Shown: one piece after another, positions 3,491 to 25,106 of the stretch
How the letters are laid out: each line of letters starts with the position of its first letter
Position numbering within the stretch: position 1 is the stretch's first letter
From: Anaerolineales bacterium
GTDB taxonomy: Bacteria > Chloroflexota > Anaerolineae > 4572-78 > J111
Direction of reading: 5' to 3'
Length of the DNA: 25,954 bases
NCBI GenBank assembly: GCA_012032575.1
Contig: JAAUSP010000029.1
Coordinates: forward strand, 1-25,954
The notes under the pieces: model-generated
The model's input: the letters and a program-made list of their open reading frames with translations, nothing else
Databases searched by the model: none
Told to the model about the DNA's origin: nothing
Translations under genes and position numbers: made by a program

Positions 3491-4513
3491 TCATTGAAGC
3501 TCAGCAGGCAAATCGAAAGCAGCGAAGAGAGCGGGATTGATGAAGGTGGTCATATCGGCGATGCCGGTCTGAGTGAGAGTCACTACCTGAATGGCAAAGG
3601 CCCGGCAGCCGGAGCCATGTTCATCCTGCTGATAGAAAGCTACGGCGGGCTGCCCATTGGCCCGGATGGGTCGAGTGCGCCACTGGCCCGGCTGAGGCTG
3701 GGCGAAAGGCACAGCCGCCAGGAACGCGGCGATGGCGTCTCGTCCCTGGTACCAGGCCGAGGAAGGCGGCATGCTCAAAACCGCGTCTTCCTTGAGCAGA
3801 GCAATCAGCGCGGCGATGTCGGCGCTTTCCCAGGCCCGCATGTAACGGTCGAGCAGGGCCAGCATGGTTTCATCGGTGGGGGGCGGCGGGTCGGCGAGGC
3901 CGGCCTGGTAATGCTGGGCCAGGGTAGTTCGCGCCCGGTGGAGGGCACTGTTGGCCGCGGAGACGGTCATATCGAGCAGTCCGGCTACTTCACTGGCCCG
4001 CCAGTCAAGGACATCGCGCAGAAGCAGCACGGCTCGCTGGCGCGGCGGCAATAATTGCAGCGCCGCCAAAAAAGCCAGAGAGATACTTTCGCGGACAGCA
4101 TAACGGGCTTCGGGGCTGGCCGCTGCCGTTTCGGGCAGCAGTTCGTCGGGAAATGGCTCCAGCCAGATGGGGTCGGCCAGGGGTGGCGCGGGAGGCTGGT
4201 CGGGTGTACTGGGCGGATAGGCTGTCACCGGCAGCGTGCGGCGGGGGCGTTTATCCAGGGTATCGAGGCAGGCATTGGTGGCAATCTTGTATAACCATGC
4301 CCGGAAGGAGGCCCGCCCCTCGTAGGTGTCCAGCCGCCGCCAGGCCCGCAGCAGCGTTTCCTGCACCAAATCTTCCGCCTCGTGCAGCGAGCCGAGCAAG
4401 CGGTAGCAGTGAAGCTGGAGCTCGCGCCGGTACGGCTCGGTCAAATGGCCGAACTCATGCGGGTCGCCGGCCTGCGCTGCGGCCAGATGGGGTACATGAG
4501 CCATGTTAAGCAT
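3491..4513 (-). CDS. ECF sigma-70 factor with C-terminal SnoaL-like domain
   Basis: An extracytoplasmic-function sigma factor of the long, SnoaL-tailed type (SigX5/SigJ-like). Region 2 (about residues 25-95) shows YRLLGSLHEAEDLVQETLLRAW and TYEGRASFRAWLYKIATNACLD. Region 4 (about 145-205) shows LPPRQRAVLLLRDVLDWRASEVAG with the helix-turn-helix. A Pro-rich linker separates the two. Residues about 215-340 read as a SnoaL/NTF2-like fold (MRAWESADIAALIALLKEDAVLSMPP), which in characterised relatives modulates sigma activity in place of an anti-sigma factor. No anti-sigma gene is nearby. The start is uncertain: TTG at 4519, ATG at 4513 and ATG at 4504 are in frame and none has a clear ribosome site. 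It begins 15 bases after an aminotransferase remnant on the same strand. Confidence 0.85.
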   Translation of the reverse strand: MLNMAHVPHLAAAQAGDPHEFGHLTEPYRRELQLHCYRLLGSLHEAEDLVQETLLRAWRRLDTYEGRASFRAWLYKIATNACLDTLDKRPRRTLPVTAYPPSTPDQPPAPPLADPIWLEPFPDELLPETAAASPEARYAVRESISLAFLAALQLLPPRQRAVLLLRDVLDWRASEVAGLLDMTVSAANSALHRARTTLAQHYQAGLADPPPPTDETMLALLDRYMRAWESADIAALIALLKEDAVLSMPPSSAWYQGRDAIAAFLAAVPFAQPQPGQWRTRPIRANGQPAVAFYQQDEHGSGCRAFAIQVVTLTQTGIADMTTFINPALFAAFDLPAELQ

Positions 4514-4528
4514 AGTCAATACGATAAG

Positions 4529-4904: not shown

Positions 4905-5651
4905 TTACTTAGCGTCCCCATAGCGCCGTTCACGCTGACTGAAGGTATGCAACGCTTTGTAATACTCGTCTTTGTCAAAGTCAGGCCAGTAAACCGGAGT
5001 AATATAATATTCGGCGTAGGCGGCCTGCCAGATCAAAAAATTACTGGTGCGGAACTCTCCGCTGGTGCGAATAATCAAATCGGGGTCGGGCGAAGCGCCG
5101 GTATACATATATTTGCTTAATAAATCTTCGGTCACATCTTCTGGCTTGATGTTATCGCGGATGAGATTTTGAACCGCCTGGACAATTTCATCGCGCCCAC
5201 CGTAATTAAAGGCCACATTGAGGATGAGCCGGTCATTATTTTGGGTCAACTCAATGGCCCGCTGCACTTTTTCCCGGATGGCCGGTCTGAGTCTTTCTAA
5301 TTTGCCCAGATGCCGCAACTGCACCCCATTTTTATGCAGTTCGAGCAGCTCACGGTCAATCACGTTTTCCAGGATATTCATCAACCCCATTACTTCCAGG
5401 GGCGGACGTTTCCAGTTTTCGGTCGAGAAGGCATAAATGGTTAGCATTTTGACGCCAAACTCGACCGAATATTCCAAAATACGCCGCAGGTTTTCAGTCC
5501 CGGCCTTGTGCCCTTCAATCCGCATTTTACCGCGCGATTTGGCCCATCGCCCGTTGCCATCCATAATGATGCCGACGTGATAAGGCGGGTTCGGTAGAGC
5601 AGGATATTTGGTTTCAGCAGCGGGTTCGGTAGCCTTAACGATTTCGACCAT
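4905..5651 (-). CDS. uppS: isoprenyl (undecaprenyl) diphosphate synthase
   Basis: A cis-prenyltransferase that extends farnesyl diphosphate with isopentenyl diphosphate to the C55 lipid carrier used for peptidoglycan and glycan assembly. Seen: [14 protein letters not shown] near residues 25-38 with the essential Asp at 31, [15 protein letters not shown], and the C-terminal [15 protein letters not shown] motif. At 248 residues the length is normal. It is the last complete gene of the rpsB operon on this strand, 69 bases after frr. The ATG has only an AAGG directly before it, so the exact start is less certain. The usual downstream partner cdsA is missing and an aminotransferase remnant follows instead. 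Confidence 0.95.
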
Positions 5652-5690
5652 CCTTGGTTACATCAAAAAAAACCGATAACTGTTCCAGAA

Positions 5691-5714
5691 AGTCCAAAGC
5701 TTTGCTTTGGGACT
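5691..5714. repeat. TCCAAAGC-type hairpin between frr and uppS
   Basis: AGTCCAAAGC (5691-5700) pairs with GCTTTGGGACT (5704-5714) with one bulge and a TTT loop. It is a shorter relative of the palindrome at 3409-3453 and lies in the 69-base gap between frr and uppS. Confidence 0.6.
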
Positions 5715-5720
5715 CCATCC

Positions 5721-6278
5721 TTACACTTCCAGAATCTCTTTTTCTTTGGTCGCGCCGATGTCGTCAACTTTTTTGATGTAATCGTCGGTTAGTTTTTGCA
5801 GGTTATCGCGGCCCGAGTAAAAATCGTCCTCGGAAATCATTTTCTCTTTTTCAAAATCACGCAAATCGTCTAACTTTTCGCGGCGGGTATTGCGGATTGA
5901 CACCCTGGCCTCTTCCGTCCGCTTGGCGGCTGCTTTGACCAGGTTACGGCGGCGCTCTTCGGTCAGGGTGGGAACTTGTAACCGAATGATCTTACCGTCA
6001 TTGTTGGGCGTCATCCCTAAATCCGACTGCATAATGGCGCGCTCGATATGTTTGAGCGCTCCCGGATCGTACGGGCGAATGGCAATCAATTGAGGTTCGG
6101 GTACACTGACCAGCGCCAGCTCTTGCAACATGGTCGGAGTGCCATAGTATTCAACCAGCAACTTGTTGACCAACCCGGTTGAAGCACGGCCCGTGCGCAA
6201 GGCTGCCAAATCAACATTGAGCGCCTCGATGGATTTGTCCATTGCTTTTTTTGCTTCATTCAACACATCATTAATCAT
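5721..6278 (-). CDS. frr: ribosome recycling factor
   Basis: Splits post-termination ribosomes together with EF-G. The full 185 residues match the family: the N-terminal helix with AALRTGRASTGLVNKLLVEYYG, then PQLIAIRPYDPGALKHIERAIMQSDLG, and LTEERRRNLVKAAAKRTEEARVSIRNTRR. The start is well supported by GGAGG 8 bases before the ATG. It sits between pyrH and uppS as in most bacteria. Confidence 0.97.
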   Translation of the reverse strand: MINDVLNEAKKAMDKSIEALNVDLAALRTGRASTGLVNKLLVEYYGTPTMLQELALVSVPEPQLIAIRPYDPGALKHIERAIMQSDLGMTPNNDGKIIRLQVPTLTEERRRNLVKAAAKRTEEARVSIRNTRREKLDDLRDFEKEKMISEDDFYSGRDNLQKLTDDYIKKVDDIGATKEKEILEV

Positions 6279-6304
6279 GTTCTGCCTCCGATGCCAGAAT
6301 AACC

Positions 6305-6388
6305 GAGATCAGAGATTGGAGACTGCGAAGCGTCCCTTTGGGATTGGAGATTATTAGCCTGAATCTCCAATCTCCAATCTCCTTTTTT
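6305..6388. repeat. GGAGATT heptamer hairpin between pyrH and frr
   Basis: Three tandem AATCTCC units (6362-6382) face inverted GGATTGGAGATT (6341-6352) across a 9-base loop, with more diverged units at 6305-6323. A T run follows on the plus strand, the wrong direction to terminate this operon. The same heptamer, inverted, occurs at 25107-25154. Confidence 0.7.
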
Positions 6389-6398
6389 AAACTCTTTC

Positions 6399-7115
6399 TT
6401 AATAGCTAACCAAAGTTCCCACAGTCTCACCCAATACGGCATTCTTAAGACTATTAGTTTCCCACAAATTCAAAACAATAATGGGCATTTGATTGTCCAT
6501 ACACAGGGTTAAAGCCGTTCCATCCATCACTTTTAGCCCCATATTGAGGGCATCAATGTAGCTGATGGTATTGAATTTTTTAGCGTTTGGATCAGTTTTG
6601 GGATCTGAGTCGTACACACCATCTACTTTGGTTGCTTTAACCAGCAGTTCGGCGTCTATCTCCATCGCTCGCAGCGCAGCGGCGGTATCGGTGGTGAAGT
6701 AGGGGTTGCCGGTGCCGGCCCCCAAAATAACTACCCGACCCTTTTCCAGATGGCGGATGGCCCGCAGGCGAATATAAGGTTCGGCCACTGCTTTCATCTC
6801 GATGGCGGTTTGCACCCGCGTTTCGATGCCAATCCGCCCCAGAGCATCGGCCAGGGCCAGGGCATTCATCACCGTAGCCAGCATGCCCATATGATCGGCG
6901 GTGGCTCGATCCATCCCGTGATCCAAACCATCCTTCCCTCGCCATAAGTTACCAGCGCCCAGGACAATGGCAATTTCAACCCCCAAATCGAGGATTGATT
7001 TTATTACCCCCGCCAATGAGTCGGCGGCGTAGGGGTCAATTCCAAAGTTGCCTTCTCCGGCTAAAGACTCGCCGCCCAGTTTTAACAAAATACGCCGATA
7101 TTTCGGGGTGGCCAT
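6399..7115 (-). CDS. pyrH: uridylate (UMP) kinase
   Basis: Phosphorylates UMP to UDP in pyrimidine nucleotide synthesis; a hexameric amino-acid-kinase-fold enzyme. Seen: [13 protein letters not shown] at the N-terminus, the [10 protein letters not shown] loop, [19 protein letters not shown], and [19 protein letters not shown]. The 238-residue length is typical. GGGAG lies 6 bases before the ATG. A hairpin lies between tsf and this gene, so its expression may be partly uncoupled from rpsB-tsf. Confidence 0.97.
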
Positions 7116-7183
7116 GCAGTTCTCCCAGATCTTAAGTTTTTATGTTCTGTCGGCAACGGTGAGGCTAAAATCTGCCCCTACAG

Positions 7184-7218
7184 AAAAGGCCGGAACTTGT
7201 GTTATGTTCCGGCCTTTT
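7184..7218. terminator. bidirectional-looking terminator between tsf and pyrH
   Basis: A 13-bp perfect stem, AAAAGGCCGGAAC (7184-7196) with GTTCCGGCCTTTT (7206-7218), starts 8 bases beyond the corrected tsf stop. On the minus strand it ends in TTTTCTG, so part of the transcripts could stop here and lower pyrH-frr-uppS relative to rpsB-tsf. Confidence 0.7.
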
Positions 7219-7226
7219 TTATACGC

Positions 7227-8104
7227 TTAGCTCGCTCCGAGTTCAAACCTGGCGAAGCGCCGGACTTTTATCTCACCGCCCAGCTCTTTGCTGTACTTCT
7301 CCAGCAGCTTGGCGATGGTTAAATCGTTGTCCTTGACAAAAGGCTGGTCTACCAGCGCCACTTCCTCGTACCATTTTTCAGCTTGCCCTCGACAATTCGC
7401 TCTTTGATATTATCAGGCTTTTTATCTTCCGCCAGTTGCGCCCGGTAGATATTCTTTTCAGACTCGATGGCCTCGGCCGGAACATCGTCCGAACTCACGT
7501 AGCGAGGCGCGGCTGCCGCAATCTGCAAAGCTACATCGTGAACCAGCCCGGCGAACTTGCTGTTGCTGGCGCTGCCGCCGGCGACATCCACCAAAACACC
7601 CACCCGGCCGCCGGTATGAATGTAGCTGTCGAGCATGCCTCCATCGGTTGGCAGTTCAAAGCGGGCCACCCGCCGCACAATCATATTTTCGCCCAGTTTG
7701 GCAATGGTTTCCGTCAGCTTTTCGGCTACGGTTTTGCTGGAGTCGTTGATAAATGGCGAGGCCAGCAATGTTTCTACGTTGACCGCATCGGCTTGATGGG
7801 CCACTTGCTGAACCAGGGCAGCCACAAAAGCTTGAAAATCCTCAGTCCGGGCCACAAAATCCGTTTCGCAGTTCACTTCCACCAAAACGCCCAGCAGCCC
7901 ATCGGCACTGATATGCGAATTCACCTGACCATCATTTGCCTCGCGGCTGGCCTTTTTCGAGGCCGCAGCCAGACCTTTTTTGCGCAAAAATTCAATCGCC
8001 TGGTCAATATCGCCCTCAGTTTCCTGAAGCGCTTTTTTGCAGTCTAAAATCCCTGCTCCGGTTGATTCCCGCAGCAGCTTAATATCTTCGGTTGTAATTG
8101 CCAC
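7227..8104 (-). CDS. tsf: translation elongation factor Ts (one frameshift)
   Basis: Nucleotide exchange factor for EF-Tu. Seen: LLRESTGAGILDCKKALQETEGD at residues 10-32, then VEVNCETDFVAR with the conserved TDFV core, and HVALQIAAAAPRYVS-like sequence further on (VHDVALQIAAAAPRY). The start is GTG at 8104 with AGGAGG before it. The uncorrected frame ends early at 7349 as KNGTRKWRW. Inserting one A into the A5 run (7374-7378 on the plus strand) restores KWYEEVALVDQPFVKD and a normal end at 7227, giving 292 residues. Because EF-Ts is essential and the tail is fully conserved, a sequencing indel is far likelier than a mutation. Confidence 0.93.
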
Positions 8105-8130
8105 AATTCCTCCTGTGGAAACAATAATCG

Positions 8131-8176
8131 GTTATCAGTGGTCAGTCCTGATTAGGCGTTACTATCCACTGATAAC
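8131..8176. repeat. 11-bp inverted repeat between rpsB and tsf
   Basis: GTTATCAGTGG (8131-8141) pairs perfectly with CCACTGATAAC (8166-8176). Degenerate ATCAGTG units recur at 8134-8147 and near 8209-8222. No clear T run follows on the operon strand, so it is probably a spacer repeat rather than a strong terminator. Confidence 0.55.
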
Positions 8177-8246
8177 TGTTTCTTTATAAAAAGTATAGAG
8201 TAGTTATTGTCATCAGTGGTGAGTGAACAGCCTGACTGATTACTGA

Positions 8247-9242
8247 TTAGCGCTCACTCTCTTCGTTTTCAGCCTCGTCGGCGGCACTGGCAGCCAGAGC
8301 AGCGGCAATGGGTGAAGCAATGGGCAGCGGTCCCAGGTCATCCACTTCGCCGGTCGCTTCTGCTTCCTCAACCTCCACTTCGCCATCTTTTTCGTCGCTG
8401 TAGCTATCATCAACCTCTTCTTCGTCATCAGCGCCGGCTTCGGCCCGAATCTTGGCCAGGGTGCTGGGGCCAAGATACCGTTCCAGAGCCTCTTCACCTT
8501 CGACGCCGGCGGCTTCTTCTTCTTCCGCCTGGATGGTGCTCAACATAGCCCGGCCCTCAAAAGCGGCATTGGCGATGGTATTGACCATCAATTTGATGGC
8601 CCGAATGGCGTCGTCATTGCTGGGGATGATGTAATCTATGGGTTCAGGATCACAATTAGTATCCACCATCGCAATCACCGGAATGCCCAACGTATTGGCT
8701 TCTTTGATCGCCAGCGTATCACGGCGCACATCGGTAACAAAGAGCAGATTGGGCAGGCGGCGCATATCTTTTAACCCGCCCAGGCGATGGTTGAGGCGGG
8801 TAATTTCCTGCTCTCGCAGCAAGGCTTCCTTTTTGGGCAAGCGGGCAAATTCGCCCCGCGATTGCTGTTTTTCAATTTCCAGCAGATAATCAATCCGCTG
8901 GCGAATGGTGCGCCAGTTGGTCAAGGTGCCGCCCAGCCAGCGCTGTTCCACGTAGGGCATACTGGCCCGGCTGGCTTCTTGCACTATCGTCTCTTGAGAT
9001 TGGCGTTTGGTGCCCACAAACAGAACAGAACCGCCCGCGGCCACTGTATCTCTGACTGCGGCATAAGCCTGATTCAGACGAGTGATGGTTTGTTGCAAGT
9101 CAATAATGTGAATACCATTGCGCTCGGTAAAGATGTAGGGCTTCATCTTTGGGTTCCAGCGCCGGGTGCGGTGACCAAAGTGGACCCCTGCTTCAAGCAG
9201 GGACTTCATGGGTACAACAGATGCAGTGTTACCGTTAGCCAT
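8247..9242 (-). CDS. rpsB: 30S ribosomal protein S2 with acidic C-terminal extension
   Basis: A small-subunit ribosomal protein. Core motifs are present: [69 protein letters not shown], and [14 protein letters not shown]. The core ends near residue 230. About 100 further residues follow, very rich in Glu, Asp and Ala, probably disordered; total 331 residues against about 230-260 for typical S2. GGAGG stands about 10 bases before the ATG. It heads the minus-strand operon with tsf. Confidence 0.96.
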
Positions 9243-9275
9243 ATTTAATTTTCCTCCGTTTTGGCTTACTTCGTC

Positions 9276-9337
9276 CGCTCTTCTCTACCAGCGGGGAACC
9301 CGGTTAGCCCTGGGCACGGCCCCGCTGTCAAAGAGCG
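9276..9337 (-). promoter_or_regulatory. folded 5' leader of rpsB
   Basis: Between the promoter and the rpsB start two nested stems can be drawn: CGCTCTT (9276-9282) with AAGAGCG (9331-9337), and inside it CAGCGGGG (9289-9296) with CCCCGCTG (9320-9327), plus a small CCC/GGG stem in the loop. It lies about 30 bases before the ATG. S2 leader autoregulation is known in other bacteria, so this may be a protein-binding leader here; that part is inference. Confidence 0.5.
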
Positions 9338-9368
9338 TGTGAATTTGGGTAAAAATTTACAAGCGAGT

Positions 9369-9397
9369 AGTATATCATGCCGCCCAGGAATCAGCAA
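9369..9397 (-). promoter_or_regulatory. sigma-70-type promoter of the rpsB operon
   Basis: Read on the minus strand: TTGCTG (9397-9392), 17-base spacer, TATACT (9374-9369). It is placed about 30 bases before the folded rpsB leader and is the best match in the rpsB-dnaG divergent spacer for this direction. Confidence 0.65.
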
Positions 9398-9488
9398 GCA
9401 AATAGGACAAGTTTCAGGGAACTGTGTCCTTCAGTTCCCCCAGTTCCCTCGGCGCGCTCAGTGCTTTCGGCCCCCTTTTAAAAACGGT

Positions 9489-9517
9489 TTGGCAAACCAC
9501 CTTTTCGTGTGTATAAT
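9489..9517 (+). promoter_or_regulatory. sigma-70-type promoter of dnaG-rpoD
   Basis: TTGGCA (9489-9494), 17-base spacer, TATAAT (9512-9517), a near-consensus housekeeping promoter 48 bases before the dnaG start. It is divergent from the rpsB promoter about 100 bases away. Confidence 0.8.
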
Positions 9518-9565
9518 TATAAGACCTGTTGTTAAAGTCCTCGGCGGAGGGAGGGTTTTAGCACC

Positions 9566-11539
9566 GTGAGCGTTACGGATGACATAAAAGCACGGCTTGA
9601 TATCGTTGACGTAGTTTCTGATACCGTCAGCTTAAAAAAGTCAGGCCGCAGCTACACCGGGTTTTGTCCCTTTCATTCAAATACAAAAACCCCTTCCTTT
9701 GTTGTTTTTCCCGATACCCAAACCTGGCGCTGCTTTGGGGCATGCGCCGATGGAGGTGATCTGTTTAGTTTTGTCATGAAACGGGAAGGGCTTGACTTTA
9801 AAGGGGCGCTCGACCTGCTGGCCCATCGGGCCGGGGTAAAACTACCCGAATACCACGCCCGCTCCCCTCAACAGTCTGAGGAGCGGGATAAGTTATTGGA
9901 ACTGACCGCCGCGGCAGCCAGTTATTTCCACCAGCTTTTAACCACTTCACGCAGCGCCGCCACAACACGCGAATATCTGGTACAGCGCGGACTCACCGCC
10001 GAAACCATCGCTACCTTTCAACTCGGGTATGCTCTGGACGAATGGGAAGCGCTGAAAAGTCATTTTATGGGGCGCGGCTACACCGCCGCCGACCTGCTGG
10101 TGGTTGGCCTGATTGTCGAGCGAGACAACGGCGAACCCGGCTATGACCGTTTTCGCCACCGGCTGATGATTCCCATTCGGGATAGCCAGGGCCAGGTTAT
10201 TGGGTTTGGCGCGCGGGCTTTATCCACCGACCAGGTTCCGAAGTATCTCAACTCGCCCCAAACCGCGCTTTTTGACAAAAGTGCGACTCTGTACAGTTTG
10301 GACCTGGCACGCAAACACATCCGCGACAGCGGCCAGGCGGTCATCGTTGAAGGGTATATGGATGCGATCCAGGCCCATCAACAAGGGGCCAATAATGTGG
10401 TCGCTCAAATGGGCACCGCGCTTACCGAAGCCCAGTTGAAGCTGATTGCGCCCCTGGCCAACCAGATTGTGCTGGCGCTCGACTCGGATACGGCTGGCAA
10501 TGCCGCCACCATGCGCGGTCTGAGTTTGGCCCGGCAGTTATTGCCCAAAAAACACCGGGCCACTTCAACATCGCGGGGCATTGCTTATGAAGCGCACATC
10601 GAGCAGGAAATTTCCATTGCCGCCCTGCCGCCCGGTCAAGACCCCGACGATGTTCTGCGCGAGGGGCTGGAAGTCTGGCAGCAGTTTATCAATGGCGCGG
10701 TGCCGGCCCTGGATTTTTATGAAGCCCTGGTTTTTGGCTCCGCCGATTTAACCACGCCGCAAGGCAAATCGGCGGCGGTACGGGAGCTTATCCCGATTTT
10801 TCGGGAAATAAAAGACGATGTCGAAAAGGTGGCGCGGGTGCAGCGTTTGGCCCGCAAAACCGGTTTGGACGAACGCCTGCTGCTGGCCGAGTTAAAAAGT
10901 AAAACTGCCACGCCGCCGCGCCCGGCCAGCCGGCCTCAAAAACAGCCGGAGCCGGATAAGCCGGTAGTGCTGACTCCGGAACCCGTACCAGGGACCATCA
11001 GTTCAACAACCGGCCTGGGACTGGAAGAGTACTGTTTGGGCTTGATTTTGAACCACCCCCTGTCACTGGTTATGGCCAACGATCTGCTGGAAAAAGAGGG
11101 GCTGCCTGGTTTGAGCCTCAATGATTTCAGATGCGGCGAAAACAAAGAAATTTTTAAATCGCTGCAATTGTGGACGGTGGCGGAAACACCCAAAATTGAA
11201 ACCCTGGTCAGTATGGTGGGTGAGGTGTTGGAAAGGCCCTTGGCCGTTCTGGCCAGCCAGTGGCATCGCCGCCCTCAGCCGCCGCTGGAAAACATCAACC
11301 ACGATTTGAGCATGGCGATTTTACGCTTGCGCCTGCAAAATGTGATTGAGCAGCACAAAGAGTTAACCTTTCTGCAACACGAAGCAATGGATAGTAAAGA
11401 TTCTCAGGGCGCGCGTCATTACACCGAAATGGTTGAAACCTACAAACAAGAGCGTAAAAAACTGGAACAGACCCGCGACGCCTTTTCCCTTATGGGCCAG
11501 CGCCGCGCCGAAGCCAATCGTTTTGGGCAGGCGCTCTAG
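9566..11539 (+). CDS. dnaG: DNA primase
   Basis: Makes RNA primers for replication at the fork with DnaB. An N-terminal zinc-binding domain is seen: C34-P-F-H37, then C56 and C60 in WRCFGACADGGD (the second pair is spaced C-x3-C). The Toprim core has AVIVEGYMDAI with E262 and VLALDSDTAG with D306 and D308. A Pro-rich linker near 450-475 leads to the C-terminal helicase-interacting region. Length is 657 residues. The GTG start is supported by GGAGGGAGG at 9546-9554 and a consensus promoter upstream. It is followed by rpoD, the usual macromolecular-synthesis pairing without rpsU. Confidence 0.97.
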   Translation: MSVTDDIKARLDIVDVVSDTVSLKKSGRSYTGFCPFHSNTKTPSFVVFPDTQTWRCFGACADGGDLFSFVMKREGLDFKGALDLLAHRAGVKLPEYHARSPQQSEERDKLLELTAAAASYFHQLLTTSRSAATTREYLVQRGLTAETIATFQLGYALDEWEALKSHFMGRGYTAADLLVVGLIVERDNGEPGYDRFRHRLMIPIRDSQGQVIGFGARALSTDQVPKYLNSPQTALFDKSATLYSLDLARKHIRDSGQAVIVEGYMDAIQAHQQGANNVVAQMGTALTEAQLKLIAPLANQIVLALDSDTAGNAATMRGLSLARQLLPKKHRATSTSRGIAYEAHIEQEISIAALPPGQDPDDVLREGLEVWQQFINGAVPALDFYEALVFGSADLTTPQGKSAAVRELIPIFREIKDDVEKVARVQRLARKTGLDERLLLAELKSKTATPPRPASRPQKQPEPDKPVVLTPEPVPGTISSTTGLGLEEYCLGLILNHPLSLVMANDLLEKEGLPGLSLNDFRCGENKEIFKSLQLWTVAETPKIETLVSMVGEVLERPLAVLASQWHRRPQPPLENINHDLSMAILRLRLQNVIEQHKELTFLQHEAMDSKDSQGARHYTEMVETYKQERKKLEQTRDAFSLMGQRRAEANRFGQAL

Positions 11540-11557
11540 CCGGGCTGCCATTAATTT

Positions 11558-11586
11558 CAAACCTATTCTAATGTTGTCCAGGTTTG
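11558..11586 (+). repeat. short inverted repeat between dnaG and rpoD
   Basis: CAAACCT (11558-11564) pairs with AGGTTTG (11580-11586) over a 15-base loop, 18 bases after dnaG. No T run follows, so it may be a processing or stabilising hairpin rather than a terminator. Confidence 0.3.
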
Positions 11587-11675
11587 GAATTGTTGCACCC
11601 GGATTTTTATTCTTGGCCCTCTATGTGTAAAATGTTAGGCAAGCCATCAGGCGGATCAGGTGGAGATAAAAGAGC

Positions 11676-13051
11676 ATGGCAAAAAAGCAGGTTGCCAACC
11701 AACGAGCCCAAAACAAATTAATTCGGCCAAAAGCGGCCGAAGCGGAAGATGTGTACGACGAAGACGCCTCACCGCTAGAGATTTTGCTGCAAAAGGTAAA
11801 AAGCAAAAGGTTATCACCCAGAGCGACATTCTGGAAGTGTTGCCCGACAGCGATATCAACACCGAAGCTGCCGACGCTTTGATTGCCCAGTTGGTTGAAC
11901 ACGGAATTGAGGTGCTGGACGACGACGATGAAGACGGCGACACCGAAGCCCTGGCCGATGTCGAAGAACCCGACGACGCCGCGCTTCAGGAAGTCGAAGA
12001 AGAGCTGGGCGACGACGATTTTCTGAACAACCAGATCATGGAGCTGGCTTCCAGCGAATTGACCAACGACCCGGTGCGGATGTATCTGCGTGAAATTGGC
12101 CAGGTCAATCTGCTGACCGCCCAGGATGAAGTTTCGCTGGCCAAACGGATTCAAAAAGGCATCAACGCCCGCAAGTCTGTGGAAAAGAACGGCAACGGCT
12201 CGATGGATGAAACGGCCATTTTGAAGGCCGAACTGGATGGCAAACTGGCCAAACGCTGCCTGGCCGAAGCCAATCTGCGCCTGGTGGTCAGCGTGGCCAA
12301 GCGTTACATAGGGCGCGGCATGAACTTTTTGGATTTAATCCAGGAAGGCAACATCGGCCTGCTGCGTGCGGTTGAAAAATTTGACCACCGCCGGGGGTAT
12401 AAATTCTCAACCTACGCCACCTGGTGGATTCGCCAGGCCATCAGCCGGGCCATTGCCGACCAGGCTCGCACCATCCGTATTCCGGTCCACATGGTTGAAA
12501 CCATCAACCGGCTGGTGCGCGTTCAGCGGCGGCTGTTGCAGGAACATGGCCGCGAACCCACCTCGAAAGAAATCGCGTTGGAACTGGACCAGATGTCCCC
12601 CGAAGATACCGAAGCCATTCGCGAAGCCTTGCAGAAAAACCAGCCGGTAGAAGCAGCTCTGGAACGCCGCTGGCGGCGTGCCGCCGGCAAAGTCCGCCGG
12701 ATTATTCGGATTGCCCAGGAGCCGATGTCGCTGGAAACGCCGATTGGTTCCGAAGAAAACAGCTACCTGGGTGATTTTATCGAAGATGAAAGTGTGTTGG
12801 GGCCGGTTGACGCCGCCTCGAAACAACTGCTCAAGGAACAGTTGCACGAAATTCTGGATTCGCTGAGTGAGCGCGAGCGCAAAGTTTTGGAGATGCGGTT
12901 CGGCTTAACAGATGGTCAGGGCCGCACCCTGGAAGAGGTGGGCAGTGAATTTGGCGTGACCCGCGAGCGCATCCGCCAGATCGAAGCCAAGGCCCTGCGC
13001 AAATTGCGCCATCCTATCCGCAGCCGCAAACTGCGAGATTACCTGGGTTAA
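11676..13051 (+). CDS. rpoD: primary sigma factor RpoD (one frameshift)
   Basis: The housekeeping sigma-70. Numbered on the corrected frame (458 residues): acidic region 1.1-like part 80-115, region 1.2 [14 protein letters not shown] at 131-144, region 2 with [29 protein letters not shown] and [13 protein letters not shown], region 3 about 280-375, region 4 with [35 protein letters not shown]. The ATG at 11676 with GGAG 10 bases before it opens [10 protein letters not shown] and runs to LEILL. There one G seems to be missing (about 11788-11790), and the next frame continues [13 protein letters not shown] to the end. Uncorrected, only a GTG at 11660 overlapping the ribosome site gives a long ORF with an implausible N-terminus. 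An insertion of about 30 residues precedes [20 protein letters not shown]. Confidence 0.94.
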
Positions 13052-16439: not shown

Positions 16440-19400
16440 CTAGACTGTTTTGATCTGGAGTTCGTCAATTCTTGCCAGATTTTTCAAGCAAGCCTGTTCG
16501 ATTTGGTGCTGGCCGATCAGCCGGCTCAATTCCAGGGCCTGGCGGCAACACCCGGCGGCGTCGGCAAAATTACCCGTTTCTAAGAGCAAGCTGCCCAGTC
16601 CAGACAGGCTGGCGGCTTCGCCGGGGCGGTCGCCGCTGGTCTGGTTGAGCGCGAGGGCCTGGCGATAATACTTTTCGGCCTGGGGGTAGTCTTTGGTGAT
16701 TCTGTAAATGTCGCCCAAACAATTGAGGCTGCGCGCCTCGGCTTGCGGTGCGCCGGCCCCATTCAGAAAATCCTGGGCATCATGCCCGTGCGCGAGGGCC
16801 AACTCAATGTGGCCCTGCTCGGCGGAAATGTAGGCCAGTTGGATCAAGCTTTCGGCTTCCAGTAGGGGGTTGTCAATGCGGCGGGCGGCCAGCAGCGCAG
16901 TTTGGGCGGACGCAGCGGCCTGGGGTAAATGTTTCAGTATCCGCTCGTATTGGGCCTGGCGGTTGTGAACCATCACTTTTTTAACCGGGTCATCCAGCGA
17001 TTGGGTCAACTGTTGCAGCGCAGCCAGATCATCGGCCTGCGCCGGGCGGTTATCTAAAAAGTCATAAATCTGCTCCCGCGCCAGCAGCAGTTCAAATCGC
17101 TGGCTTTGGGCCACGTGGCCTGGCCCTAACTGGTCGAGCGCTTCCAAAGCGCGGGTGGTCCAAAAGAGGGCCTGGGGGCTGGCGTTGATGGCGCGGGCCT
17201 GGGCGGCGGCCTGAATACTGTAAGATAACCCTTTTTCCAGTTCCTGGGCCAAGAAGAAATGGTGAGCCAGTGCGGCGGCGAAGGGAACGTGGCTTTGTTC
17301 CAGGGTTTCGCCTACCTCGCGGTGAATGAGGCGCTGCTTCAGCGGGCTGAGGTTTTGGTACAGAACCGACCGGGTAGTGTGATGACTGAAGCGCATGACG
17401 CCTTCCAGGGGCACATCGCGAATCAATTGCCGTTCCAGGGCGGTGTCCAAACCTTCCAGGATATTACCATCTGACAATTCACTGATTTGCCGCAAATGGT
17501 CAAAGGTAAAGGTGTGGCCTAGTACGGCGGCCTGATATAGCAGCGCCTGGGTTTCCTTGCTGAGCCGGTTGGTCCGGCGCAGCACGGTATCCCCCAAACG
17601 ATGGGGCAGCCCGGTTTCGACCACCGGCGAAAAATACCAGCGCCCTTCACGCCAGGTGACGGTTTCATCATCCACCAGGCTCTTGGCAATTTCTTCCACA
17701 AACAAGGGATTGCCCTGGCTGCGCCGGTAAACAGCCCCCACCAAATCCAGTGGGGCGTCTGAGTCCAGATATTTTCGAGCAGTTCGGCCACTTCGCTTTC
17801 GGCCAGCGGCCCCAGGGTGACTGAGGTATAGGCCGGATAGCTGCTCCACTTTGGTAACGTTTCGGTCAGGGGCGTCTCGCTGGCCTCATCGCTGCGATAA
17901 ACGCCGACAATCATCACCGGCATATCGCGACAGCCGCGCACCAAATAATCCAGCAGTTGCAAACTATTGGTATCAGCCCATTGCAAATCATCCAAAATTA
18001 TCAACCAGGGGCGTTTAGCTGCTGCCCGACCCACCAGCTCAGCCAGGCTAAAGGTAGGCGGCCGGCGGTCGGCAGCCTGAGGCCGGTCTGGTAGAATTTG
18101 TTGGATTTCAGGGATTGCCTGAGCGGCCTGCTCCAGCACCCAGCTGACCTGTTTTTCACCCATATCGGTGGTGGTGGCAAAATAGGTTTTGAGCGCATCT
18201 ATAAAAGGCTGGTAGGACAGACTGCTTTCCGGAGGCCGGCAGCAGCCCAGCAGCACTGTAGCCTGGCTGGCCCGGTCGGCCAGTTCCTGAATCAGCCGGG
18301 TTTTGCCGCTGCCGGTTTCGCCGCTGACCAACGCCAGTTGGCCCTGGCCTTGCAGGGTCGCTGCCCACAGGTCCAGCAGACATTGCAGCGAATCTTCACG
18401 GCCCACCAACCCCGGCCAGCGGCGCGGGCGCAACACCTGGCGGCGCAGGCTGCGGCTAACCGTCTGGGTCAAATTGGTCAGAATCCGGCGGACCTGCCGG
18501 GCGCTGACATAACGTTTGTTGGGGTCTTTGTCCAGCAGTTTCAACACCACGTATTCCAGCGAGCGGGATAGGGTTGGGTTGAGTTCGCGCAGGGGGCGGG
18601 GGCGGCTGCTGCGATGATGCTCCATCACTTCCTGGTCCGTTCCCTCAAAAAGAGGCTGGCCGGTGAACAGCTCATACAAAATGATACCCAGCGTATACAA
18701 ATCGGTGCGGGCATCTATGGGATGGCCCAACACCTGTTCCGGGGCCAGGTAGCGGGCTGTGACCAGCGTCAGCGACGTATCTTCGCCGTTGAGCAGGGAT
18801 TTGCCGCTTTCCAGCCGGCCCAGGCCAAAGTCGCTCAGCTTTATTTCGTCGGCGGTAACAAGGATATTTTTGGGCTTCAAATCGCCGTGAATAACACCGC
18901 GAGCATGGGCATATTCCAGGGCGCGGGCAACCTTTTCGGCAATGGTCAGGGCCAGGTCGAGTGGCAGCGGCTGGCCGGGCTGGGCGTTGAGCAGGTCGGT
19001 CAGGCTTTGGCCTTCGACAAATTCCTCGACCATGAAGGACAAACCCTGGTCTTCGTCGCAATCGTAAATGTCAACAATGTTGGGATGAATTAAGTTGATC
19101 AGTTCGCGGGCCTGCTGCAAAAAGCGCTCGATGGCCGCTTCGCTGAATGAGGCTGACAGGACTTTGACAGCGACGGGGCGGTTCAGCCGGTTATCTACGG
19201 CCTTAAAACTGGTCCCCAGCCGGCCATCGCCAATTTTGCTCTCGACAAAATAGCGGTTTTGATGGTCTGGCCGGGCAGGTTGAGAGTTTCGCGGGCTTGC
19301 AGGGCGGTGAGCGCGGCATGCACCGAAGGGTAAATGGCAAAAAAGTCCAGATAGCCGGCCAGTTCGATGACCTGCTGCACGTTGATCGAAGGACCGGCCA

Positions 19401-20690
19401 GAACCATCGGGGTGCTCAACTGCTCCCGTCGAAGTTTGACCAGCGCCCGCAGTCCGGATACTTGCAGCATCTCCACGTCGGTCATATCTACAATCAGGTA
19501 GGGCGGCCAGCCCTCGGCCTTCAATTCGGCCAGTTGCCGTCTTAGCTCGGCGGCCACCCGCTCGTTAAAAATGCCGGCCGGTTTGAGGATGGCGGCTTTG
19601 CCGCCGGGAACCTGCTGCAACTGGGTGGTTTTGGGCGGGGTCAGGTCAAACGTCAGGCCCTCCTGGGCAATCATCACGTTGACCGGCTCGGCGTGGGGAT
19701 ACTGGCTCTGCTGGAACTTGCGGGTATCCTCTAAAATTTTTCCAGGTCGCGGTCGGTGTAGGTAGGGTCGTAATGAAACAGGACCAGATTCCTGACATTG
19801 GCTTCCTGAGCCATTTCGACCCCGGCCAGCGAGGAACTGTGACCCCAGTCCTCTTTTTCATCCGACTCTTTCTGGGTAAATTGCGAGTCATAGATGAGCA
19901 TATCGGCATCGGCAAAAAAGTTGAGGGCGGGATGGGTGTCGGTACCGGAAGGATAGGCGGCGTCGCTGGCGTAGACAAAAACCTTATCCGCTTTTTCAAA
20001 ACGGAAGGCATAGGCATCGCCAGGGTGGTGATTACGCAGGGTACGGATCCGCAGGTCGCCAAATTCCAGGCTATCTTCCGGTTTGAGCCGGATAAATTTC
20101 AACTCGGCCTGCATGTAATCCAGCGAAACCGGAAAGCTGATAAATTCCTGCTGCCGGCGCAGGGCCGCTTCCATATCGTGGAGGCCATATATAAAAATTT
20201 TGTTGCCGCGCACAAAAGCGGGCCGAAAAAAGGGGAAGCCCTGAATATGGTCCCAGTGGGGATGGCTAAAAAAAAGATGGATCGTCCCCCGACCCTGGCC
20301 GCACTTGCCCTTCATCAATTCCAGGCCCAAGGCTCGAATGCCGGAACCAGCGTCAATGATGAACAAATCATCGCCCGATTGAACCTCGATGCAAGGGGTA
20401 TTGCCCCCGGCGGTACCGGCGACAAGGGGCGACAAGGTGTCCAGGTAGGCCCGGACGACCTGCCGCCGTTTCACCTGAGTTTTAGCCAGGGCTAAGTTAA
20501 CCGACTGGCCTGATGAAATCTCTGAGGGCGCGGGGGACTCTTCCATGATAGCCGCCAGAAGTTCCTCCTTCAGCTCACCCTTTTCTATTTGCGAAATACC
20601 GAGAATGGCCGCGATGATCTTCTCCCGGATCTCATCTGGCCGGATGGGTGAGGGGATCGAGCCTCGCGCTCCCCAAATCTTCACTTTCAT
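16440..20690 (-). CDS. MBL - STAS - Ser/Thr kinase - AAA ATPase - TPR fusion protein (three frameshifts)
   Basis: After three one-base corrections this is one frame of about 1,417 residues. (1) Metallo-beta-lactamase fold, 1-350: ligands HPHWDH at 143-148, H221/H222, D243, H306, with an unusual helical insertion at about 18-95. (2) STAS domain, about 364-466, with S412 in QVSGLRALV at the anti-sigma-antagonist phosphosite position. (3) Ser/Thr kinase, about 480-745: GDGRLG loop, K510, HGDLKPKN (D604; HRD changed to HGD), DFG 621-623, APE 650-652. (4) ATPase, about 760-975: Walker A GETGSGKT 791-798, Walker B LIILDD 897-902. (5) TPR-like helices to the C-terminus. Missing bases: 17772-17775, 19269-19270, 19737-19741, all in short runs. 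GGAAG lies before the ATG at 20690. Domains 3-5 match PknK-like regulators. The MBL-STAS front is unusual. Uncorrected it would be read as two or three separate genes. Confidence 0.7.
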
Positions 20691-20834: not shown

Positions 20835-23236
20835 ATGGAATCAAACCAACTCCTGTCTGACTTTAACCAGGTTTCCCTTAAAACAAGAGATGCGCTTAGA
20901 ACCATCGCCGTCTCGCGCCAACTGCGCGATTTGTCATCGCTAACGCTGCCGGAAATTGAGGCTGCGGTTAACCTGGTCAGCCAGGTTGTGCCGGCGGGCA
21001 ATGTACCTGGCATTATTTTAAACGGGCTAACCCGTGTGGCGGGCCGCAAGCCCCCGGCCAAAGTTGTCCAGCGAGACATTAACCTGCTCTTTCAGGGCGT
21101 TGACCGGGCGCTGAACACAGCCGTTTATGGCGCTTTTTTTGCCGGGCCGGCGGCGGTGATCTGGGGCTATCAAAATCTGCTCCGGCTGGCCGGCAAAGAC
21201 CCCGAAGATTCTTTTCCCGAAGGCACCTGGCAGTTTTATGTGGATTACGCCCTGCGCGAAGACACGCCCGCCATGCCACCGAGACGCACGGTTTCGATAC
21301 CCGGCTAAAAGAACACCGGCTGTCCCTCAGCCGGGTAGACCGGGTGACAGCCTGGGTCATGGCCGCGATCCACTGCCTGCATCAATATCCCGCGCTGCTG
21401 GAGAATGAGTGGCGCGAGCGGATTTATACCCAGTTTTTGCAGCAGCTCACCGCCGACCAGCCTGACGCGGCCCACTATGCCCGGCTCTACCGCGAATGGG
21501 AAAAGCAGCGTCCGTATGAACCCGGTCCTGATAAGCAAACCAACGAAAGCTATCCTGAGTACAGACGGCGCAAATTCGATCTCTTTTGGGACCAGGCCAT
21601 CCAAAATTTGCCCACGCCGCTGCACCACGAATTGACCCGCCAAATCCGAGAGGCTGAAACCGAAGCTTTACCGGCCTACCAGCAGCAGATGTCTATTCTG
21701 GCTTACCTCGACCCCGGCCCCTACGGCGAAACCCGCCAAAAGGTTTTGCCTGGGCAGCTCTGTGTGGGGTTGATTTATCAGGGCAGTTATCACCTGATCC
21801 ACGTTTATGCGCCAGGGGAAAAAAACCGGCTGAGGTGGAGATGGTTCGGGGGCAGGTGGCGGCGATTATAGGCCGCTCCTCAAGTTCACAGCCGGCCTCA
21901 CTCATGCCGCTGGCCCGCCTCAAACGGGCAGCCTGGCCCGAACTGCGCCAAAAGCTGAAGTCCGGCCCTGGTTAAAGAATTGGCCCTATTGCAACGCGCC
22001 CCTATTTTGCTCAACGCCGACCCGCGTCCCGCCGGCCTGCCGCTGGCCGAACTGCGCCAGGCCGAGCGCGGCAGCGGCGGCCACGCTTTGACTCTCTTTG
22101 ACACCGGCGAAACATTTGTCTTCGATCAGTCGCACATCTTTTTTGATGGAGCCTGGGGAGCCGCCCTGGCCGAAATTATGACCGATGAGGCCCTGGGCTG
22201 GGCCGTGTATCTCAGCACCCTGCCGCCCATTCAGGCCGGTTCGACTCATCTCAAAAGGCTGAATTTTCAATTCAAACCGGAGGACCTGGCTGTACTGGCG
22301 CAAACGCCCACAGTTGCCCCGGAGGTGAGCGTCGAAACAAAGGCGGTCAATCTTAAAGCTATCCAGCAGTTGCGTCGGGCCTTTAAACAGCGCAATGCTT
22401 CAATCGAGTTGACTGTTAGTGATCTGCTCATTCTCTACCGGGCGGTTCACGCTGTAAAATACCAGCCGGCCCAAAAACTGCTGGCGCAGTTGCAAAAGCT
22501 GACTAAAGACAGCGCCACCCGTGCGGCGGCAGAAGCGGCCCTTGAAGCTTTGCAGCCGGCCAAGCCGATGAGTCCGGCCATTGTCATTCCGGTTGACGCC
22601 AGCCGGCGCAATCCCCGCGACCGGCTGCACCCGATGACCTTTGAGGTTCCCTTAAACGACCTGGACTTAAGCAATTTGCACGATCGTACCCTAACGGCCT
22701 GGCGGACTTATCAGCAGGGTCAAGCCGATTTTGCCAAATTTAACCAACTGCGGGGCAAATACTTGCGTTTCCTGGTCGAATTCGGTAGGATGCTCTGTGA
22801 GGCCAAGAAGATTGCCTTAACCGGCGAAAGCGCCAGCGTAGGTTCGATTAAACTGCTGGCCCATTTGCCCATACCCTTGCAGCGTATGCTGGATCAGGTA
22901 CCCAGCCGTTTTGATGTTTTAAACGATCTCATCCGGGGCCGGGAGGTTTTTTCCAATGTCGGGGCGGTAGTCCCCGGCAGTACCCTGACCCGTTTTATTA
23001 CGGCCAAGGACGACAACGACAAAAAAACGCTGGCCTGGGGCATCATCACCGCTGCCAACGCTGTGATGCACGTCAGTCTGCGCGATTTCCGGCCGCACGT
23101 GGCAGCCTTGATTGACGCCGGGCACAAAGAATTAGCCGCCAGCCTGGCCCAGCACTATCTTGACACATACACCAACGGGCTTAACCGCTTCATTGCCGAC
23201 CTGCGCGATATTACGGAAGCCGGGGAGAAATTGTGA
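20835..23236 (+). CDS. unrecognised protein of about 800 residues (three frameshifts)
   Basis: I do not recognise the family. Three corrections join three ORFs into 801 codons exactly: a base missing near 21264-21268, one A missing in the A7 run 21819-21825 (giving YAPGEKKPAEVEMVRGQ), and one extra C near 21964-21969 (giving KSGLVKELALLQ). The N-terminal third is helical, with a hydrophobic stretch AVYGAFFAGPAAVIWGY near 97-112. Near 141-154 the motif REDTARHATETHGF has clustered His and Glu. A mixed middle part includes FDQSHIFFDGAWGAALAE, and the last 250 residues are helical and fairly hydrophilic. No signal peptide. It is divergent from the fusion gene and 129 bases upstream of a membrane kinase, so a signalling partner role is a contextual guess. 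Confidence 0.6.
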
Positions 23237-23361
23237 ATGGCGAATAGCGAATGGCGAATTTTCCAGGCTGAAAGTGGGATGCAAACCTGCGTCAGTCGGG
23301 GGTCGCAGACCCCCTCCGAGCAGTAAATTCACAATTCACAATTCACAATTAGTTCTGAGAC
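23233..23361. repeat. tandem-repeat spacer before the membrane kinase
   Basis: Four heptamers (GTGAATG, GCGAATA, GCGAATG, GCGAATT) at 23233-23260 overlap the stop codon of the upstream gene. GGGGGTC (23298-23304) and GACCCCC (23308-23314) form a tight hairpin. Then ATTCACA-type octamers repeat three times (about 23326-23350). No T run of terminator strength follows, so read-through into the kinase is possible. Confidence 0.65.
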
Positions 23362-23365
23362 AAAC

Positions 23366-25106
23366 ATGCCTAACGACTCCTTAATTGGCCGGAGGCTGGA
23401 CGAATACCACCTGGAGGCTCTGCTGGGCCAGGGGGGGATGGCCCGTGTTTATCGCGGGTTAGATGTGCGCCTCAAACGGTGGGTCGCCATCAAGGTGATT
23501 GACGCCCCCTTCCGGGCCGACTCCGATTACATTAAACGGTTTGAACTGGAAGCTCAGGCCATTGCCCAGTTGGAACATCCGCACATCGTCCGGCTGTACC
23601 GCTACGGCGAAGCCAAAGAACTGCTTTACATGGCCATGCAGTACGTCGAAGGCGCGCCCCTGAACGAAATGCTGGCCTCCTACCGAGCTGAGGGCGACTT
23701 CATCGAGCCGGCCGAGGCCAGCCGGATCATCGGCGAAGTCTGCCTGGCCCTCGATTACGCCCACCGCCAGGGGGTCATCCATCGGGATGTCAAGCCGGCC
23801 AATATTATCCTGACCAAGCAGGGCAGCGCGATTTTGACCGACTTTGGTCTGGCCCTGCTGACCGACGTCGGCACGCGCGGCGAAATCTTTGGCACGCCTC
23901 ACTACATGGCCCCGGAGCAGGCCATGTCGTCGGCGGGAGTTGTCCCCCAAAGCGACCTGTATGCCGTAGGCGTCATCCTGTACGAGATGTTTACCGGCCG
24001 CGTCCCTTTCGATGCGGCTACACCGCTGGATGTGGCCATGCTGCACATGAGCGAGCCACCGCCGCGCCCGCGCCAGTTTCGGGCCGACCTCAAACCCGCT
24101 TTAGAGAAGGTTATGCTGAATGCGTTAGCCAAAGACCCGCGCCAGCGCTACCCCAACGGCGCAGCCCTGGCCGAGGCAGTTGAGCAAGCCCTGAAAGCCC
24201 CCCGCCCCAAAGCCGCCCCAGCCGCCCCGCCCCCAGAAATCTATTCCTGAACGAGTGGCGGTGAGCATGGCCAAGCGCCCCCTGCCGCCGCTGCCCGCCG
24301 CCGTAGCCGCGCCGCCTGCCAAGAAAAAAGCGCGTCCGGCGTCCAAATCCGCCCCTGTACCCGCGCCCCCTCCCGAACCCGGCCGGCGCTGGTGGCCTTT
24401 TCTGGCTGCCGCCGTAGGGTTGATCTTGCTGGTTGGAATTGGCGCACTGTTCTTGACGCCCATAGCGTCATATTTCGGAGGGCCGGTCAACCGGGCAGAC
24501 GGACAGGCTTCGGCCAGCCAGTCCACCCCAGCGCTTACTCCGTCTCCGACTGCCCTGGTCAATGAACTGGCTCTGCCAACGCCGACTCCTTCGGCTACCC
24601 CGCTGCCGGAGCCAAAGGTTTTGGCCGACAGCCGCCGCGATTTCTCCGGCACATCCGGCGGGTGGGATTATCTGTGGTCGCCGCCGGACCAGGACGAGTG
24701 GACCCCGCTGAAATACGAAACGCGGCAGTACGGCGACTGCTGGTATGGGCAGGATTATATTCGTATTTGCGCCGACTCGGTTCACCCCGGCAACGGTGCT
24801 GATGTGGCCTTGCGCTGGCAAAGCGAGGTCAGTGGGCCGCTGGAGGTGCGCCTCCAGGCGGGTAAGAAAGACCTGGGCGGGGATGGCGTATCCATCGCCG
24901 TTTATCGCAACACCACTCAAACCACCGGCTTTCCCGAATTCAAAAAGTCGCTGGTCGGAAATGATGGAGGCGGATTTGCCGAAAAGTTCCAGCTTGACCA
25001 TATTACCCCCGGCGATTATTTATTGTTTGTCATCCAGAGAAACGGCGACGCCACCAACGACCATACCGCTTTTGAGGCGTTGATCTGTCACTATCGCTGT
25101 CCGTAG
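23366..25106 (+). CDS. single-pass membrane Ser/Thr protein kinase (one frameshift)
   Basis: A Hanks-type kinase with an external domain. Kinase 1-275: GQGGMARV loop 21-28, K43, HRDVKPAN with D141, DFG 159-161, APE 182-184. The raw frame stops at 24250 in a Pro-Ala linker. One extra C in the C5 run (24230-24234) explains this, since the next frame is open upstream (PQKSIPERVAVSMAKRP) and the sum is exactly 580 codons. Then a Pro/Ala/Lys linker, a membrane helix at about 343-364 (WWPFLAAAVGLILLVGIGALFL), and an outer domain of about 200 residues with Trp, Gly and four Cys, ending ICHYRCP, which looks beta-rich. Kinase inside and sensor outside is the expected topology. A terminator follows 1 base after the stop. 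Confidence 0.85.

Follow-up and report, generated by a model that had tools for sequence, protein, structure and literature searches.

How many genes lie on the minus strand between positions 16440 and 20702 of contig JAAUSP010000029.1 of an Anaerolineales bacterium, and what would their product do? Four open reading frames (ORFs) follow one another there and encode, in succession, metallo-beta-lactamase (MBL), STAS, kinase-ATPase and tetratricopeptide repeat (TPR) parts. The whole stretch of 25,954 nucleotides that was analyzed is called the window below. Judged by its translation and its relatives, the minus strand at 16440-20690 holds a single gene, MBL-STAS-kinase-ATPase-TPR, and in the contig three breaks interrupt its frame. 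We read the product as a signaling phosphodiesterase governed by a kinase or pseudokinase and by STAND-like modules within one Chloroflexota protein, and put the probability of this reading at about one half.

Pfam matches on the four uncorrected ORFs are Lactamase_B_2 (1.6e-18), STAS (1.4e-12), Pkinase (3e-39), AAA_16 (4.2e-27) and TPR_12 (3e-15), on the minus strand in the order that an earlier note on this DNA had given. Pieces translated from three frames abut at three points, and the joined product has 1417 residues plus a stop, in agreement with the single frame of 1,418 codons into which that note had merged three ORFs and a kinase fragment. The nearest database protein among the matches listed, P0001, has one uninterrupted frame of 1417 residues.

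16440..20690, minus strand: whole gene, MBL-STAS-Ser/Thr kinase-ATPase-TPR, 1417 residues by the intact relative, with three breaks
20690 to about 19650, minus strand: MBL module including an N-terminal helical insert (structure model, fold search)
19770..20360, minus strand: predicted MBL-fold hydrolase domain (Lactamase_B_2, Pfam 1.6e-18)
20247..20264, minus strand: HxHxDH metal motif, H143-H148 (H143, H145, D147 and H148 in 121 of 121 sequences)
19312..19593, minus strand: STAS domain (PF01740, 1.4e-12)
19456..19461, minus strand: V411-S412; V411 on the SpoIIAA/RsbV phosphosite column, S412 next to it (alignments)
18497..19258, minus strand: Hanks-type Ser/Thr kinase domain with K510, D604, N609 and D621 (Pfam, alignment)
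17906..18409, minus strand: P-loop ATPase (AAA_16) with Walker A GETGSGKT and Walker B LIILDD (Pfam, alignment)
16521..16736, minus strand: TPR repeats, best Pfam stretch (TPR_12, 3e-15; TPR proteins of the PDB matched)

Conservation and distribution of the fusion

The first 480 residues, used as a query, found 333 proteins at E <=0.001, of which 120 were listed; in all 120, hidden Markov models (HMMs) built from the family find the order MBL, STAS, kinase, ATPase. Uninterrupted homologs, which the earlier note had proposed to look for, are thus present in P0001 and in this fused set, and the closest full relatives do not carry the modules as the separate genes that the note had considered. 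The first 492 residues found 4040 proteins, and the 120 listed from this search supplied shorter forms. Both lists together hold 239 proteins, including the window's own MBL piece (P0123), which was excluded from later alignments and counts: 122 with four HMM domains, 64 with MBL-STAS-kinase (the three-domain class), 30 with MBL-STAS and 23 with MBL only, the three-domain and MBL-only classes including fragments. Members of the three-domain branch are 690-745 residues long. Records of kinase-fused proteins that carry an organism name (most carry none) come from Chloroflexota, mainly Anaerolineae, and database records already call such proteins 'protein kinase' or 'anti-anti-sigma factor'.

Among 396 genomes of the class of the Anaerolineae genome G005 (that of locus L006), an MBL match at 1e-40 was found in at least 43. 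Classified by the length of the open frame, at least 24 genomes have the full form, at least 15 the MBL-STAS form and at least three the three-domain form, with two or more full forms in at least nine; one frame of 920 residues scored as full and one of 629 residues scored as three-domain could be truncated. The counts are lower bounds, with at most five candidates scored per genome and 10 of 80 rows set aside as weak, and because the genomes share ancestry, the Fisher values computed from them do not stand as independent tests. A genome scan at a stricter limit gave 7 of 150. Among at least 80 loci, non-fused MBL proteins sharing the N-terminal part were found in records that carry the names Spirochaetes, Deltaproteobacteria, Neomarinimicrobiota, Armatimonadetes and others. 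The MBL tree, which has SH-aLRT support only, a root chosen by us and 25 label changes that include cut-off database proteins, leaves the deep order of stand-alone and fused forms open, several deep nodes having support of 30-66. In L127 (1498-2799) an MBL-STAS gene lies in two frames (MBL 1498-2346, STAS 2404-2799), so that this family member, too, is broken or split.

An invariant hydrolase center

The earlier note had described an MBL domain with every metal ligand, and all seven (H143, H145, D147, H148, H222, D243 and H306) are indeed present in the window and invariant in 121 of 121 aligned sequences (the window and 120 homologs). The same is true of N97, T98, C100, W146, D268, W282, G283, H284 and S286. 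The ligands are kept in 64 of 64 three-domain rows, and the MBL-STAS and MBL classes deviate by single gaps only.

A structure predicted for the MBL piece of the window itself (pLDDT 80.2, pTM 0.72) has the N-terminal helical insert; its nearest Foldseek matches are YhfI (4.3e-13) and RNase Z, with PhnP and Apyc1 lower in the list. The available parts of the published accounts place YhfI and Rv1339 within or near the class II phosphodiesterases of MBL fold and describe YhfI and Apyc1 as homodimers, Apyc1 binding two zinc ions via HxHxDH. With these atypical class II enzymes (YhfI, Rv1339, Apyc1; PF12706) the window domain shares, as far as those accounts go, the fold, HxHxDH and the ligand set, whereas its helical insert, its fusion to signaling domains and a score far below the NCBIfam cut-off set it apart. 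Fold neighbors and ligand set together predict a phosphodiesterase. The earlier suggestion that the domain acts on a nucleotide or phosphodiester signal gains from the nearest folds, which are mostly phosphodiester-cleaving enzymes, whereas the fold does not single out this substrate.

We consider it unlikely that the domain instead senses a ligand (metal, oxygen or nucleotide) and signals to the kinases with no substrate turnover: a position N-terminal to the kinase, or in the preceding gene, is frequent for sensors, but the invariance from N97 to S286 of the non-ligand residues named above is what is expected of an enzyme.

Pairing with histidine kinases

In the class of G005, 15 related loci carry a stand-alone MBL gene, and in 14 of them (L104-L117; not L119) the next gene on the same strand encodes a homolog of the GAF histidine kinase of L101-L103. 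L104 and L110 coincide with L101 and L102, which leaves 12 new loci. The histidine kinases of L101-L103 consist of GAF repeats and HATPase_c, and a receiver-BTAD regulator comes next in L101 and L103. The gene row of these two loci is a three-gene signaling operon of Anaerolineae. Its genes (L101:116-5628 and L103:79-5486) encode a stand-alone MBL, a GAF-repeat histidine kinase and a receiver-receiver-BTAD protein and are separated by gaps of 2 to about 60 bases. Outside Chloroflexota, a histidine kinase gene and a GAF-HD gene lie beside MBL in L024 and L079.

Kinases and probable pseudokinases

The window kinase keeps K510, D604, N609 and D621, which are present in 111, 102, 118 and 87 of the 121 aligned sequences, respectively. 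Because the classes contain fragments, the census was redone on complete lengths, which removed 12 of the 64 three-domain rows and 11 of the 122 rows of the full class. All four residues are kept in 77 of 111 complete full-length proteins and in none of 52 complete three-domain proteins, 47 of which have lost both catalytic aspartates. On the MBL tree the kinase changes between the intact and the degenerate state at least ten times (142 rows with a state). A working kinase, which the switch suggested in the earlier note would need, is by these counts not a constant part. Kinases lacking the four residues would be inactive; the kinase of the three-domain proteins has probably lost its activity and would instead bind the hydrolase or control it allosterically.

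It is quite improbable that the chain unites a writer and an eraser, with the kinase adding phosphate or AMP to a client protein and the MBL removing it. The loss of both aspartates in 47 of the 52 three-domain proteins should leave no metal site for the transfer, and the hydrolase is also paired with a histidine kinase; SelO, the pseudokinase that would serve as a precedent, keeps its DFG aspartate, which counts against the comparison. The precedent itself is that RNase Z, a structural neighbor of the MBL, removes AMP set by SelO, according to the available part of PMC12663964. There, too, a kinase-fold and an MBL-fold enzyme act in one circuit, but as separate proteins, whereas most pseudokinases here have neither catalytic aspartate.

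The Walker A lysine is kept in 118 of 121 aligned sequences. A model of P0108 (1184 residues; pLDDT 84.7, pTM 0.70) is confident along most of the chain, and its best 50 Foldseek matches listed are kinases. The Pkinase, AAA_16 and TPR_12 matches bear out the earlier comparison of this half with PknK. Like the PknK-type STAND kinases (M. tuberculosis PknK, MalT class), the protein has a Hanks kinase, a P-loop ATPase and TPR-like repeats; unlike them, it adds MBL and STAS in front, and it has three-domain relatives without ATPase and TPR whose kinase residues are lost. The available portion of the source describes PknK and MalT as STAND proteins whose sensors are of the repeat type and whose effectors may lie at either end. 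The model of the TOMM system kinase/cyclase fusion protein (TIGR03903) also matches P0001 at residues 761-1190, the ATPase and the following part, but with 235.3 versus 705.75 bits; P0001 has no cyclase match, and its MBL and STAS domains lie at the opposite end. PADLOC matches (PD-T4-6, MAD6, MkoA and others; PglW in P0113) fall on the kinase part in the matches listed and were not used as evidence of phage defense.

The STAS domain and S412

The STAS domain scores 47.8 bits with PF01740 (cut-off 22.6). Alignments to solved STAS structures (4hyl, 4qtp, 8ih8) put V411 on the serine column and S412 one residue on. The STAS protein of the adjacent gene in L022 connects the V411 column to SpoIIAA and RsbV, which are phosphorylated at this column, and the 1tid chain, with alanine in the phosphosite column, fits this assignment. 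None of the 122 full, 64 three-domain and 28 MBL-STAS sequences that have a residue at column 411 has serine there. In the 122 full forms the column holds V 71, T 32, M 10, I 8 and L 1; the 64 three-domain forms have V 29, T 18, I 13, A 2, L 1 and P 1, and the 30 MBL-STAS forms M 18, I 5, T 3, V 2 and two gaps. Threonine, found in 53 of 214 rows, would still allow some members to be phosphorylated at this column, but not the window protein with its V411. Column 412 is alanine in 90 of 122 full, 59 of 64 three-domain and 28 of 30 MBL-STAS forms. With SpoIIAA and RsbV, which are anti-anti-sigma factors, the protein has the Pfam STAS domain in common; it differs in having no serine at the phosphosite column, and P0001 stays under the NCBIfam ant_ant_sig cut-off (38 versus 53.45 bits).

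The phosphorylatable STAS domain that the earlier note placed at S412 is therefore not borne out: the phosphosite column is V411, with no serine in 214 rows. Phosphorylation of S412 by the kinase, thereby controlling the MBL, is very improbable, even though the window kinase has all its four catalytic residues and S412 exists in the window, P0001 and P0002 (serine in 13 and threonine in 18 of the 121 aligned sequences). STAS stays in the three-domain forms although none of the 52 complete ones keeps the four kinase residues, and STAS domains of the SpoIIAA type are phosphorylated by GHKL kinases and are not known as targets of Hanks kinases. Such a phosphoswitch was rejected as the leading explanation given the V411 column, the predominance of alanine at 412 and the degenerate three-domain kinases.

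The three breaks

The frame changes lie at the following positions.

19731..19741, minus strand: first frame change, end of MBL (frame joins, comparison with P0001)
19258..19266, minus strand: second frame change, STAS to kinase (frame joins, comparison with P0001)
17748..17757, minus strand: third frame change, ATPase part (frame joins, placed against P0001)

The earlier note had put the breaks at 17770, 19265 and 19740. Their number holds; the one at 17770 moves by about 20 bases, as P0001 keeps the upstream frame eight codons longer, which places the site near 17,750. The four segments are 96.9, 99.4, 94.7 and 92.3% identical to P0001 with zero gap columns, the last figure being lowered slightly by about eight residues that the joined window query misreads at the third break. 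Such identity without gaps on the flanks of every break indicates no decay on either side. The breaks may stem from read error, assembly error or recent mutation in the strain. Six close matches are shorter (P0121, P0122, P0124, P0125, P0152 and P0165) and were read as fragments, because five of them end or begin inside or just past a domain and P0165 has an apparent wrong-frame end. That the frame changes are genuine and mark a fresh pseudogene or several short genes, as the contig sequence itself and these short matches might suggest, is hardly credible given the 92-99% ungapped identity on both sides of each break and the fusion in all 120 long homologs listed.

Proposed mechanism

In the reading that we prefer, a signaling phosphodiesterase under kinase or pseudokinase and STAND-like control, the N-terminal MBL would be a di-metal phosphodiesterase, likely acting on a cyclic nucleotide or a similar phosphodiester, and STAS would be a packing or docking domain rather than a phospho-target of the SpoIIAA type. 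The kinase-ATPase-TPR half would form a STAND switch of the PknK type: a ligand or partner on the TPR region may let the ATPase change state, which would bring the kinase and hydrolase together or free them. By domain order, signal flow might run from the TPR sensor through the ATPase switch to the kinase and MBL-STAS effectors, the hydrolase being the constant activity and the kinase optional. A constant MBL site and a changeable kinase suggest to us that phosphodiester hydrolysis either is controlled by these proteins or controls them, with a kinase or pseudokinase on top.

Several results weigh against this reading. The fold list of the MBL model also contains arylsulfatase (8.5e-12), the beta-lactamase PNGM-1 (9.0e-10) and PqqB (3.2e-8), so that a substrate cannot be read from the fold. 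The domain falls far short of the cut-offs of NCBIfam NF041851 (cyclic nucleotide phosphodiesterase; 52.3 versus 400 bits) and TIGR02651 (RNase Z; 77.2 versus 292.95 bits), both scores being well above chance, and no activity is known for any family member. When the ATPase piece was compared by sequence with the PDB, no STAND protein came up, and the STAND label thus relies on AAA_16, TPR and domain order. The 14 loci with histidine kinases are relatives of one query and hence represent one conserved operon, not 14 independent pairings, and in L115-L117 the histidine kinase match lies in short or split frames. In the annotated Treponema loci the MBL gene stands beside mltG-dnaG-rpoD and not beside a kinase. 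The family is also rare in the class of G005, where 353 of 396 genomes have no match at 1e-40 and eight more have weak ones only.

Other genes in and around the loci

Run on the ORFs of the 80 loci listed, the STAS HMM matched STAS genes outside the fusions in four of them, L014, L020, L021 and L022. In L022 the STAS gene comes 81 bases after MBL and in L020 17 bases ahead of it, whereas those of L014 and L021 lie farther away; L020 clusters with the MBL-STAS fusions on the MBL tree (support 56, parent node 89). In the few loci examined, no constant neighbor of the fused genes was found: a PPK2 gene precedes that of L001, a BtpA-family gene precedes that of L002, and an RNA-binding-domain gene lies on the other strand in L081. 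PMT_2 genes follow the MBL-STAS genes of L094 and L095. Outside Chloroflexota, Pfam matches of neighbors at the few loci covered (L008, L018, L024, L051 with two gene sets, L052 and L079) are YbjQ, SAF, receiver-PAS-histidine kinase, YceG/DnaG/sigma-70, CxxCxxCC and GAF-HD. In Treponema bryantii (L051:9947-15880) the MBL relative lies before mltG (YceG), dnaG and a sigma-70 gene, and frames of the same sizes occur in other Treponema loci.

The window itself has, at 20835-24250 beside the fused gene, three plus-strand ORFs with no Pfam match and then a second Ser/Thr kinase gene (23366-24250). At 4905-13051 lie common housekeeping genes: the minus strand carries uppS-like, frr, an amino-acid-kinase-family gene (pyrH by position), tsf and rpsB, after which dnaG and a sigma-70 gene follow on the plus strand. 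A link between these two genes and the Treponema loci was treated as chance, because distance and strand differ. A sigma-70-family factor with a C-terminal SnoaL-like domain is encoded at 3491-4519.

Relation to described systems and meaning

The architecture was not found described among the literature matches listed, subscription journals being mostly outside the search. PMC7159879, which matched four of five search terms, mentions no MBL or lactamase in its available part. The earlier statement that no described protein is known to add MBL and STAS in front thus agrees with the open-licence literature matches listed, and the protein family is apparently undescribed.

A wider proposal is tentative and, in our estimate, more doubtful than the reading of the protein itself: the MBL-STAS-kinase family may be an unnamed Chloroflexota signaling system that couples a phosphodiesterase to kinases along two routes, through an operon with a GAF histidine kinase and through fusion to a Hanks kinase, which in whole branches would have decayed to a pseudokinase regulator. 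It would then be a phosphodiesterase under pseudokinase control, acting on a nucleotide signal as yet undescribed in these bacteria. The strictest selection is on the hydrolase center, not on the kinase, although many database records name the proteins after the latter. MBL alone, MBL-STAS, MBL-STAS-pseudokinase and the full five-part protein form a natural series for testing the part of each domain, and the family hints that Anaerolineae and related bacteria use a phosphodiester signal, be it a nucleotide or another compound.

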